From the NCBI GenBank assembly GCA_943737045.1, contig CALSFV010000203.1:2159501-2223500 (forward strand): 64,000 nucleotides of DNA. Direction: 5' to 3'. A program made the position numbers and the translations under genes. This document shows, piece after piece, positions 1,629-39,413 of the stretch (position 1 is its first letter; each line of letters starts with the position of its first letter). The notes under the pieces were generated by a model. It ran no database searches and was not told the origin of the DNA. It saw only the letters and a list, made by a program, of their open reading frames with translations. Source of the stretch: Parapristionchus giblindavisi. Its lineage: Eukaryota; Nematoda; Chromadorea; Rhabditida; Diplogasteridae.

Positions 1629-1780
1629 CACTGAGCCAAAAGTTGCTTAGAAATGTCTCAGCTAATTACATTGCTAAGAAGAAGCTCAGCTAAAACGACC
1701 CCTTCATCTTATATTTAAGATGAGACAAAAAAAGCATGACGTTTGCTAAGTTGTTCTTCAGCTAATTGAATAAACGTTCA
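1629..1780 (+). repeat. Outer element left terminal/subterminal region
   Basis: This terminal inverted repeat is followed by several copies of CTCAGCTAA or TTCAGCTAA. It is clearly similar to the left end of the MITE at 14072. In CACTA elements such clustered subterminal motifs bind the element's accessory protein; that role is an inference here. Confidence 0.85.
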
Positions 1781-1965
1781 CTACTTGTACCAACTTGTAT
1801 ACGATTACTTATTTTAATTCAGTACAAGCGCACGTTTGTGCTTCAATATTTGAATTATTTTATTTATTTATTTATTTTATTTTGTGTCATTGATTACAAC
1901 GTACGATTAATAATATGTTTATTGCGAAAACATTTCGTAATTTGTTTGACAAGGCACATTATAGG

Positions 1966-4900
1966 ATGAAATGTCCTTATCCCTCTTGTGGGGATACATT
2001 TTCCTCTGCTCAAGATCGAACTGCTCACTTCCGCATCACACAACATCAATCTGTAAGTATTTCATTTAACATATTGTCGAAACAATCTATAAATATTTTT
2101 CATTTCCTTTTTTCACCTTAACATTTTCAGGAAAGATTAATTTGTTTTGAATGCCAGTCGTTGCCGGACTTTCTCAATCACAGAACGTGGAGTGACCACA
2201 ACAGGAGGATGCATGGTCGAGGTGAACAAACAGTATTTGAATAAAAAAAAGAGTGTATAAACATAAATGTCAAATGCGGTCTGATTTTCACAACAAAATC
2301 ACAAAATGCGGTCAGGTTTTCACAAAATGCGGTAGGGTTTCAAAAAATCCAAAATGCAGTCAGGCTCCGTAGTTTGCAACATACTTTTCTTCCTAGTATG
2401 GTTATAACTTTGTATCGTTTACACAAAATCAATCAATACTCTAATCAAACTACCGTACCTGGGCTGCTCACTATTGATCGGACCGAGTAGTGTGTCGTGT
2501 GCACCACCTAGTCATCGTCGTATGCCCCTGATCGCTGTACACGCACAATCGAATATGGTAACGTCTGGATCACCGGCGTGCTTAAAATAGAGATACGAAA
2601 TGCTACGGTGGAATATAGATTAGAGGAAATTACTTTGCTCTATCGACTAGAACTTGTTAATCTATCAACAGAAAACGTTTTGATTGTTCAGCAAAACCTG
2701 ATGTCTACAAAATAATTGCTTGAACACACAATGAAATGCAATGGGTGAAACCCACTTTCACCAGGATGGGAGTGATCTCTTTGATGAACGGAAGAGCCGA
2801 TGACGCCGAGGGAATGGTGAGCATCAGACGGTAGATGAGGGAGGGTCTGAACGTGATTGATCTTTGATCTTTGATCTCTCATTCAATGATCTTCCAAATT
2901 AAACTCGAAAAGGCAAGTCTGATCTTTGATCTTTCAACAATGACACACGATTGATATTTGATCTCTTCGTATTCATTCTCACTAACCTTCATCTCCGTAC
3001 TCGGTTTGGCCATGCCCTCCAACAGTGGACCAGAGATCCGATCGATTGAACACTGCAATTGGATGAGTTACCGTACTCGAGTATTACCGTAGTTGAACTT
3101 ACAGCTAATCAAGCATTTATTATAAACTACAATTTCAAGTGAGAGAGAAATCAATAAAAAGTAAAAGGCTTACAGTAGCCGCGACCTCGTCGAGACACGC
3201 AGACAGTGGTTCTCTCACTGTTGCTTTGTTGCCTTCTCAGAGGGCACCACATCTGCAGGGAATTATTATTCGTTTATTGATTCATCTCTTCACGTATTTC
3301 CAATCTCGATCATACATTTTCGGTACCCTCGCCGTCTATATTTATATAGTGGGTCAATTCTCGAATAAGGTGGGTTGATTCACAAAATTCGTTATTTTCG
3401 CCTAAAAATCGTCGTTTTAAAGGGAGAGTTTCCCATAAATATATTGATTGAAATTCCGAAAATGTTCGTAAGTGAAATTTTGTTCCACCACGAATTGACG
3501 AACTATGATACTGTAGTTTGAAGAAAGTGCAATTGATTTCCACGCTGGAGCTTTGTCAGAGCATCGATATTTGATGCAAATCACATATTGATGCAGTGCA
3601 TGCAAATCGAAATTTGATTTACATAATGAATATCTGTGCTGCCTCTTAATATAACCCGTCTATGCAAATGTGTCTCTTCTTGGACAGATATACCCCTTTC
3701 CAACTAGGACTAACATCTCTAGTTGGCCAAGTGGTCTAGGGCGCTCTCTTTCGCCGTGACTAAAGGTTTCAAATACCAGATCGGGTCGTGATTTTTGCTG
3801 ATTTCTTTGAAATGCTCTAGTTCGACTATTCCGTACGGGGATCTCCCGCGAATTTGAACGCATAATTCTCCAAGGGATACCGTCCCTTTAAAGATGGAGA
3901 CCCACGAGTTTTTTCGTAATAAGACTGTTCGGATAGTATGATAGAGATTCATTACACGAATCGAAAGACATATCTGATATTGATTCCCGATATGTTTAAA
4001 GCTCACTATGATCATTGAAAGTACAACTTTCAAGGCATGTAGAGAGTGCTCATCGAATTTGCATACTTTCTCTCTCATTTTCTCATTATCCCTTACGCCA
4101 ATTACCATATAATATAAGCAATAGCCAGCATGCTTATCGTGGTGGGAGTCAGTCATGCCAACTCATGGGTCCCCTTCTTTAAGCTTATTTTTTTTTCAAG
4201 TGGCCTAAAATGGGCCTTATATAGTGGGTCAATCCTCGCACTGCGAGGGTATGGCAATGTATGATCTCGATTGATGAGATAAAAATGCGCTTCGATCACC
4301 AGAAAGAACAATGTTCAAGAAAACCCAGTAACTCCCGAAACTTCCAAATACTATACATCCCACCAGTGAGATTCATGTTTCGCTACTTTCTCAACTACTA
4401 GACTGCCAAGGAGCATATTGATAAGCGTACAATCGTATCTCAAATATGTTACGGATCAGATGCAGTCAGGTTTTTCGATTTTCGGGAATTTTTGGCTCAA
4501 ATGCGGTTAGGCTTCGTAGTTTGTAACCTACTATTCGACTTAAGCGTACAATATACATACCATTCCGATTAACGATCAAAAATGCCTCCTCAGTCCTTTC
4601 GCCGGCGCTGTGATCACACGAATCGCCACCCCGACCACGTTAATGTTCGAGTCCTTCAGAAGAATCTGTAATCGATCAATCAATAATCAACAAATAAATA
4701 ATGCTATTATCAACTCCGGTCAGGTGTATTTGATTTTTGTGAACTTTTGGCTCAAAATCCGGTCAGGCTTGGTACTTTGTAACAGGGCTGTGCGGAAAAT
4801 AGTTTTCGGAAAATTTCGGAAAACGGAAATTTTCCGAAATTATTTTTCGGAAAATTTCGGAAAAATCGAAATTTGCCTCAAAAAACATAAAGTTTCGTGT

Positions 4901-39006: not shown

Positions 39007-39289
39007 GTAGCCTGATGAAGTGGTCCGTCGCTGTTGATTTGCATATCTTGTGTAGTATATCTTGTATATCTTTTATACGGTTGTTTTCCCTTTGTGCTGG
39101 TCTTGTCATTGATGTGAATTCTTGTAATAATTTCACTCTTGTACTATAAACGTGTCATTTCTTTATCTCTACAGTACATTTTACAGAACAATTCAATAAC
39201 AACATTCAATAAAATCATTTTGCGATAAGTAATAATAAGGATCTACCCGCCCCTGGGTTCGGCTCGATAGTTAGCTGAATTCCGCTTGT

Positions 39290-39413
39290 ATTTAAGATAA
39301 ACACTCAACTAGAATGTAAGAAACCATCTCAACTTACATTCTAGCTGAACTCTACTTGAGTGTATCGAGATAGCAGAGGCTATGCTTGTATTTAAGTAAC
39401 ATTTGGCTCAGTG
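39290..39413 (-). repeat. Outer element right terminal/subterminal region
   Basis: TTAGCTGAA and TCTAGCTGAACTC motifs lead to ATTTGGCTCAGTG. It matches 14400-14532 closely. Confidence 0.88.

Follow-up and report, generated by a model that had tools for sequence, protein, structure and literature searches.

A 37,785-bp insertion in the genome of the nematode Parapristionchus giblindavisi is very probably a nest of transposons, in which a core element of ~15.5 kb from the CACTA-Mirage-Chapaev (CMC) clade entered a palindromic repeat with a CA target-site duplication (TSD) and was later invaded by a non-long-terminal-repeat (non-LTR) retrotransposon, a miniature inverted-repeat transposable element (MITE) and a second CMC-type transposon, here called X. 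The insertion lies in a stretch of 64,000 nucleotides, referred to as the window (assembly GCA_943737045.1, contig CALSFV010000203.1, abbreviated C203, positions 2,159,501–2,223,500, forward strand). Briefly, its structure was read from the assembled sequence, and genome searches were run over the 251-Mb assembly with scores given to the best candidates only. Features are listed in Table 1.

The insertion and its empty site

A preliminary description of the window had proposed a 37.8-kb CACTA-like transposon with its pre-insertion site in the same window, and direct reading located both. At the left junction ...TGTACCCCA is followed by CACTGAGCCAAAAG and the element starts with CACTGAGCC at position 1629; at the right junction ...CATTTGGCTCAGTG is followed by CACTTTCC and the element ends with GGCTCAGTG at 39413; and TGTACTCCACTTTCC is unbroken at ~59546–59560. 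The left flank (1–1629) was 96.6% identical to 57956–59554 over 1640 aligned positions, and the right flank (39414–41454) was 99.1% identical to 59552–61594 over 2043 positions. The matching ends, CA duplication and shared subterminal motifs of the same description were likewise present. The terminal inverted repeats (TIRs) agreed at 12 of 12 positions and were imperfect beyond these, the CA was exact on both sides, and the 37,785 bp contained 17 copies of the hexamer CAGCTA/TAGCTG, five of which lay within the terminal 200 bp (expectation for 200 bp, 0.09), in direct orientation at the left end and inverted at the right end.

A 181-bp probe for the empty site returned 2298 first-look candidates, of which the best 40 were scored. 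All 40 crossed the insertion point (38 covering probe positions 1–181 and two covering 6–181), and the empty form is thus the norm for the target repeat. These rows do not represent independent sites: one was the probe itself, another was the arm lying inverted next to the element in its palindromic target, and further rows probably pair up as the two arms of single palindromes. Twenty-eight of the scored rows lay on C203 within its last 300 kb (1.94–2.23 Mb). The target repeat is palindromic (58783–59794, self-inverted at 86%), and a large inverted repeat adjoins the insertion at 40378–45916 (43348–45916 relative to 40378–42945, 99.7% identity).

The origin of the DNA from a nematode was borne out by the exact 22-nt sequence that we take to be the nematode spliced leader SL1, which occurred 351 times in the assembly (reversed control, 0). 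On C145 (26449–82876) it recurred in an array with a spacing of ~1.17 kb; in nematodes, SL1 and 5S ribosomal DNA arrays are often linked.

A sister copy without five blocks

Second copies with the same ends, for which a genome-wide search had been proposed, were found at many places. Left-end and right-end searches recovered a sister of 16,139 bp at C114:145374–129236, with the same ends and a TA duplication. A copy on C673 was counted as the insertion on C114 and not as an independent one, because the two were 99.8% identical and had the right flank in common. The C114 copy is without five blocks of the window (3419–4178, 5630–9517, 10350–11694, 14072–14534 and 20655–36503; 22,305 bp in sum), and the window core minus these blocks comes to 15,480 bp. 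A single element of 37.8 kb was rejected because this relative is without the five blocks and 20655–36501 is a separate transposon; what stood of the original proposal was a cut-and-paste, CACTA-like insertion, and what fell was its size as one element. Overall, the core is a CMC-type transposon of ~15.5 kb that is now broken in both of its genes, by the MITE and by X.

The first and third blocks had no clear ends. The second is the non-LTR retrotransposon, both open reading frames (ORFs) of which are open (5763–9399); it is positioned between the zinc-finger exons and the transposase exons of the core. The MITE of the fourth block carries the core's own ends, and C114 has a clean empty site at that position. 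It sits in the transposase exon that starts at 14057, where the reading frame hits a TGA at once, and the core transposase gene is thereby broken. A tRNA-like stretch seen by eye in the MITE (14270–14345) was dropped, as ARAGORN found no tRNA in the window.

For the TSDs of this family, 20 copies were picked by hand from the listed matches with both ends (C113 and C62 were among those left out). All 20 had an exact 2-bp TSD (15 TA, 4 TG and 1 AA), none had a 3-bp TSD, and 17 were exactly 461 bp long; two of the copies (L036 and L037) had identical flanking bases and are not independent. Together with the subterminal hexamers, these 2-bp TSDs support mobilisation of the MITEs in trans by a putative CMC transposase that cuts with a stagger of 2 bp. 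At C212:175–194 kb, X-type ends were interleaved with core-type MITEs, and this segment looks duplicated because two MITE copies there have the same flanking bases.

Compared to C114, the core was not uniformly similar along its length. Left of ~20250, the 53 bins (each ≤250 bp) had 94–100% identity, and 45 reached 0.980 or more, with gaps ignored and with C114 having insertions of its own in this part. At ~20300 identity dropped within 40 bp, to 79–93% up to the X site and then to 63–88% (12 bins) as far as the right end, and was ~70% for the right part as a whole. The right end of the insertion itself matched a C204 fragment with 97.4% identity over 1219 positions. Gene 3, which lies to the right of the transposase gene in the core, had 71% amino acid identity to C114 over its last eight exons (356 codons), with proportions of synonymous and nonsynonymous differences (pS and pN) of 0.754 and 0.174; four preceding model exons, poorly conserved and uncertain, were kept out of this count. 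Its synonymous sites are saturated and it is under strong purifying selection. No relative of gene 3 was found in Pfam, nor among 4828 candidates from the protein collection at E ≤ 0.01.

Because a near-identical left part stands beside a saturated gene 3, one of the two elements appears to be a chimera, and either the core or the C114 copy would have received its gene-3/right-end module from a long-diverged lineage. We consider it unlikely that the break at ~20300 instead arose because the right half evolved very fast or the left half underwent gene conversion. The same contrast would be seen if the left half had been converted between the lineages of C203 and C114, but such conversion is itself an exchange between copies, and fast evolution fits poorly with saturated synonymous sites within a few hundred bases of 1–2% divergence.

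Element X, its presumed derivative and its host-gene fragments

X starts with CACACAGAGAAAAAAGTGTTAAA and ends with the inverse (23 of 23 positions). Ten further pairs of X-type ends were 2.1–3.7 kb apart; nine of these had an exact 2-bp TSD by script and none had a 3-bp TSD, and for the tenth (L062/L063), moving the end by two bases within a CA repeat gives a CA duplication. Probes across the core/X junctions, for which the best 40 of 67 (left) and 40 of 51 (right) candidates were scored, gave 44 and 42 matches, among which the window's own match alone crossed each junction. All others broke off at most a few bases from the junction; those on C114 and C673 reached it from the core, and the rest from X. 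Since many copies end at the same bases, the outer edges of X are confirmed; no second copy of the whole arrangement of core and X was found among these scored matches.

The same probes bear on whether the nest formed elsewhere and jumped whole to position 1628, as a true mobile unit of 37.8 kb with transposase supplied in trans. In favour of such a jump, the outer element has kept its TIRs, subterminal repeats and TSD intact, and gene-less MITEs of the same family have spread. Neither core/X junction, however, has a second copy among the scored matches, and nesting after insertion gives the same structure with fewer assumptions, which makes the jump of a finished nest very unlikely. In the stepwise history that we favour, the core would have entered the palindromic repeat by cut-and-paste with a 2-bp CA duplication, and would later have received as guests the retrotransposon, a 461-bp MITE that the core's own family mobilised, and the distantly related CMC element X.

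A second copy of X at C14:240335–245619 (~5.3 kb, TT on both sides) was 99.77% identical to the window over 20655–22789 and 99.97% identical over 33352–36502. It is without 22790–33351, and the join shows an overlap of 1 bp. As these blocks diverge so little, X has moved recently. The most likely reading of the C14 copy is that it derives from an X-like parent by internal deletion, because a segment similar to C37 (22296–23357) and another similar to C16 (33134–33496) cross the two breakpoints unbroken in the window. The opposite direction, with 22790–33351 as a separate 10.56-kb insertion into X and no loss from C14, would account for the clean C14 junction and the near-identity of the adjoining blocks, but no TIR or TSD was seen at the block edges, the block holds the X transposase, and both of the segments just named are continuous over its edges; we give this possibility only a slim chance. 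X looks intact, with recent movement and internal deletion derivatives; such derivatives, and possibly the host-gene fragments as well, would arise via interrupted gap repair.

That the assembler simply joined unrelated repeats is scarcely credible: every part is a repeat, and the 99.8% identical copies of one insertion on C114 and C673 indicate that the assembly may hold haplotigs, but for all three of outer element, MITE and X the boundaries coincide exactly with a TIR and a 2-bp TSD, and three such coincidences are unexpected from errors.

X carries a piece of an FMR1/FXR gene that aligned to C15 in six pieces with 77–91% identity; C15 was the sole locus among the matches listed (best 40 of 5933 candidates). 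In PDB, the FMR1 KH domains of 2qnd were matched by 265 amino acids of the C15 gene model (E 8.4e-26) and also by the piece in X itself (E 4.1e-7). Because the match covers introns of the C15 model, DNA rather than mRNA would have been copied, and by that model the fragment is a putative DNA-level copy. A second module encodes, at 22798–23085, a piece of importin beta (1ukl, E 2.4e-14; Pfam 39.4 bits, cut-off 29.1). Importin beta as a capture unique to X was not upheld, as similar modules were present at seven other places in five contigs, namely C37 (two places), C8, C57, C235 (two places) and C224. A further importin-beta-like match of 87 bp was found at C204.

Table 1. Features of the nested insertion and its target repeat (window positions).
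Feature	Position	Strand	Details
Whole insertion (core CMC-type transposon and all nested guests)	1629–39413	+	37,785 bp; from junctions and C114 comparison
TSD CA, left copy	1627–1628		Read directly
TSD CA, right copy	39414–39415		Read directly; CA duplication exact
Left TIR	1629–1640	+	CACTGAGCCAAA; 12/12 identical to right end
Right TIR	39402–39413	-	Counterpart of left TIR, 12/12
Subterminal CAGCTA repeats	1659–1764	+	At 1659, 1687 and 1759
Subterminal repeats, inverted	39272–39347	-	TAGCTG at 39272 and 39342
Target repeat, uninterrupted copy	57956–61594	+	Empty site ~59552
Core zinc-finger exons (model)	1966–2221	+	
Block absent from C114	3419–4178		Insertion here or deletion there
Nested non-LTR retrotransposon	5630–9517	+	264-amino-acid ORF and 974-amino-acid endonuclease/reverse transcriptase ORF
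Block absent from C114	10350–11694		Insertion here or deletion there
Core transposase	12502–15570	+	Exons ~12502–13114, 13184–13591, 13636–13785, 13835–13934, 14057–14689 (split by MITE), 14747–14930, 14974–15570; coordinates carried over from C114 model
MITE of the core's own family	14072–14532	+	461 bp; TSD TA; inside transposase exon
Approximate mosaic breakpoint	20300		Relative to C114/C673
Core gene 3 (accessory), start	20458–20654	+	Exon 1 from 20458 (first ATG); exon 2 cut by X at 20654
Core gene 3, remainder past X	36504–39006	+	From 36504
Element X	20655–36501	+	15,847 bp; CACACAGAGAAAAAAGTGTTAAA ends; TSD TA (20653–20654, 36502–36503)
X zinc-finger exon(s) (model)	20933–21167	+	
Importin-beta-derived module in X	22296–24278	- (coding strand)	
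Part of X missing from presumed deletion derivative C14	22790–33351		
X transposase (model)	25078–29405	+	8 exons, 713 amino acids, open; D 26170, D 26569, C 26629, C 26708, H 28788, H 28800, E 28860
Copy of part of FMR1/FXR gene, exons and introns	29901–32525	-	Host locus C15:859026–862846
Segment similar to C16:502167–502559	33134–33496		
X gene 3 candidate (model)	33901–36106	+	Weak similarity to core gene 3 (E 4.9e-4, small database); same relative place

Transposases, clade and known systems

The model of the core transposase is unbroken in C114, and all introns of the X transposase model are GT-AG. The two proteins have their exon order in common and are 29% identical. In the alignment, the catalytic pattern is D183, D275, C295/C298, H509/H513 and E533 in X and D260, D355, C375/C378, H611/H615 and E635 in the C114 core. 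The same pattern (D, D, C-x2-C, H-x3-H, E) was found in two relatives from other sources, P0002 and P0003, and the distance from the second H to the E is 20 residues in all four. The published signature of the CMC(T) clade is a DDE triad in which C(2)C and H(3-4)H lie between the second D and the last E (PMC12730594). By alignment, both putative transposases carry this CACTA-Mirage-Chapaev pattern, an assignment at the level of the clade. The termini are 5'-CA..TG-3', and the TSDs fall in the 2–5 bp range of the clade, being 2 bp in the core family (20 of 20), the X family (9 of 10 by script), C114, C14 and the window.

P0002 was recovered from the protein collection as a relative of the core transposase (E 4.5e-22), and its N-terminus has Cys/His motifs that by eye resemble two C2H2 zinc fingers, followed by the transposase. 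The zinc-finger exons with which the models of the core and X begin on the left resemble these motifs, and we therefore infer that they are N-terminal exons of the transposase genes, across a long intron. Among 7994 scored candidates, two homologues of the core transposase were found at E ≤ 0.01, and in both of them Pfam recognised no domain at E ≤ 1; none of 7998 scored candidates was a homologue of the X transposase at E ≤ 0.001. Pfam Transposase_21 matched the core below its cut-off of 28.6 bits (E 1e-4; 22.0 and 21.6 bits). As a mechanism, a zinc-finger DDE transposase would bind the ends and subterminal repeats and would cut mostly TA dinucleotides with a 2-bp stagger, leaving 2-bp duplications. 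The gene 3 protein may assist, by analogy with plant CACTA ORF2, a second ORF that aids excision (PMC4158355).

Several points weigh against this account. The first and third blocks may be losses from C114 rather than gains in the window, and the retrotransposon site in C114 holds ~150 bp of other sequence and so is not a clean empty site. The ends of the 37.8-kb unit are intact on both sides, and it could have moved, or could yet move, as one. The restriction of scores to the best candidates limits the searches. Gene models came from a crude, home-made splice-model finder trained on 1351 hand-picked window codons and vary with its intron penalty, and the X exon at 26704–26829, the source of C298 as the second cysteine in the C(2)C motif, was set by hand. 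The X proteins had no transposase match in Pfam, and a PDB search with a profile of both transposases returned no DDE enzyme, its sole match (merozoite surface protein 1 of malaria, E 0.0029) being taken as chance. A fold prediction for P0002 from two sequences (predicted local distance difference test score, pLDDT, of 31) was too poor to use.

Mirage is a nematode lineage of the CMC clade, a clade that in our own judgement is less studied in animals than in plants. Compared to plant CACTA/EnSpm elements (PMC4158355), those described here have similar CAC...GTG termini, subterminal repeats as in canonical members, a DDE transposase and a second protein without an assigned function. They differ in their 2-bp TSDs, relative to 3 bp in plants (0 of 20 core-family copies and 0 of 10 X-type pairs with 3 bp), in ending with CACTG...CAGTG (core) or CACAC...GTGTG (X) instead of the plant CACTA/TAGTG pentamers, in their putative N-terminal zinc fingers, and in Transposase_21 (tnp2) of canonical CACTA, which was below the Pfam cut-off in the core and had no match in X. 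The label CACTA given at the outset therefore holds in the wider sense of CMC membership and not in the strict plant sense of CACTA/TAGTG ends with a 3-bp TSD. Likeness to the CMC(T) clade (CA..TG termini, 2–5 bp TSDs, C(2)C and H(3-4)H) places both elements at clade level only, and TA duplications are described for ESTA too.

A putative autonomous CACTA of 20.5 kb in soybean, Tgmt* (PMC2613891), and enlarged En/Spm elements of 16–20 kb in the red alga Chondrus (PMC6431247) were reported as single large elements, whereas several elements nested together make up the 37.8 kb here; mistaking nests for giant elements is an error warned of in the CACTA literature (PMC8978399). Like Pack-TYPE transposons (PMC8903248, PMC1947982, PMC8277862), X is a TIR element with genomic fragments of host genes, but those are described as non-autonomous and X also has an open transposase model of 713 codons. 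CACTA elements of 16–20.5 kb and gene capture are already known from plants and a red alga, and the core and X are new members of a known clade; the most notable features are the probable exchange of modules and the presence of FMR1/FXR pieces in an animal element that appears to be autonomous. A nematode element of this kind was not found described in the literature searched (titles, with few subscription papers), which is weak evidence of absence.

More tentatively, and with somewhat less than even confidence, we propose that these elements represent a nematode lineage of 15–16-kb CMC transposons with 2-bp TSDs, a zinc-finger transposase and a conserved accessory protein without known relatives, in which a gene-3/right-end cassette recombines between lineages, and in which X is active and autonomous, with captured, intron-containing pieces of FMR1/FXR and importin beta. 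The apparent 38-kb transposon is a nest, and 37.8 kb is not the size of an element. What remains is a pair of related, well-bounded nematode CMC elements, for which there are an exact empty site, a deletion derivative that is nearly identical and a sister copy whose gene models are unbroken, and this would make transposase activity, accessory-gene function and the capture of host genes testable in an animal.

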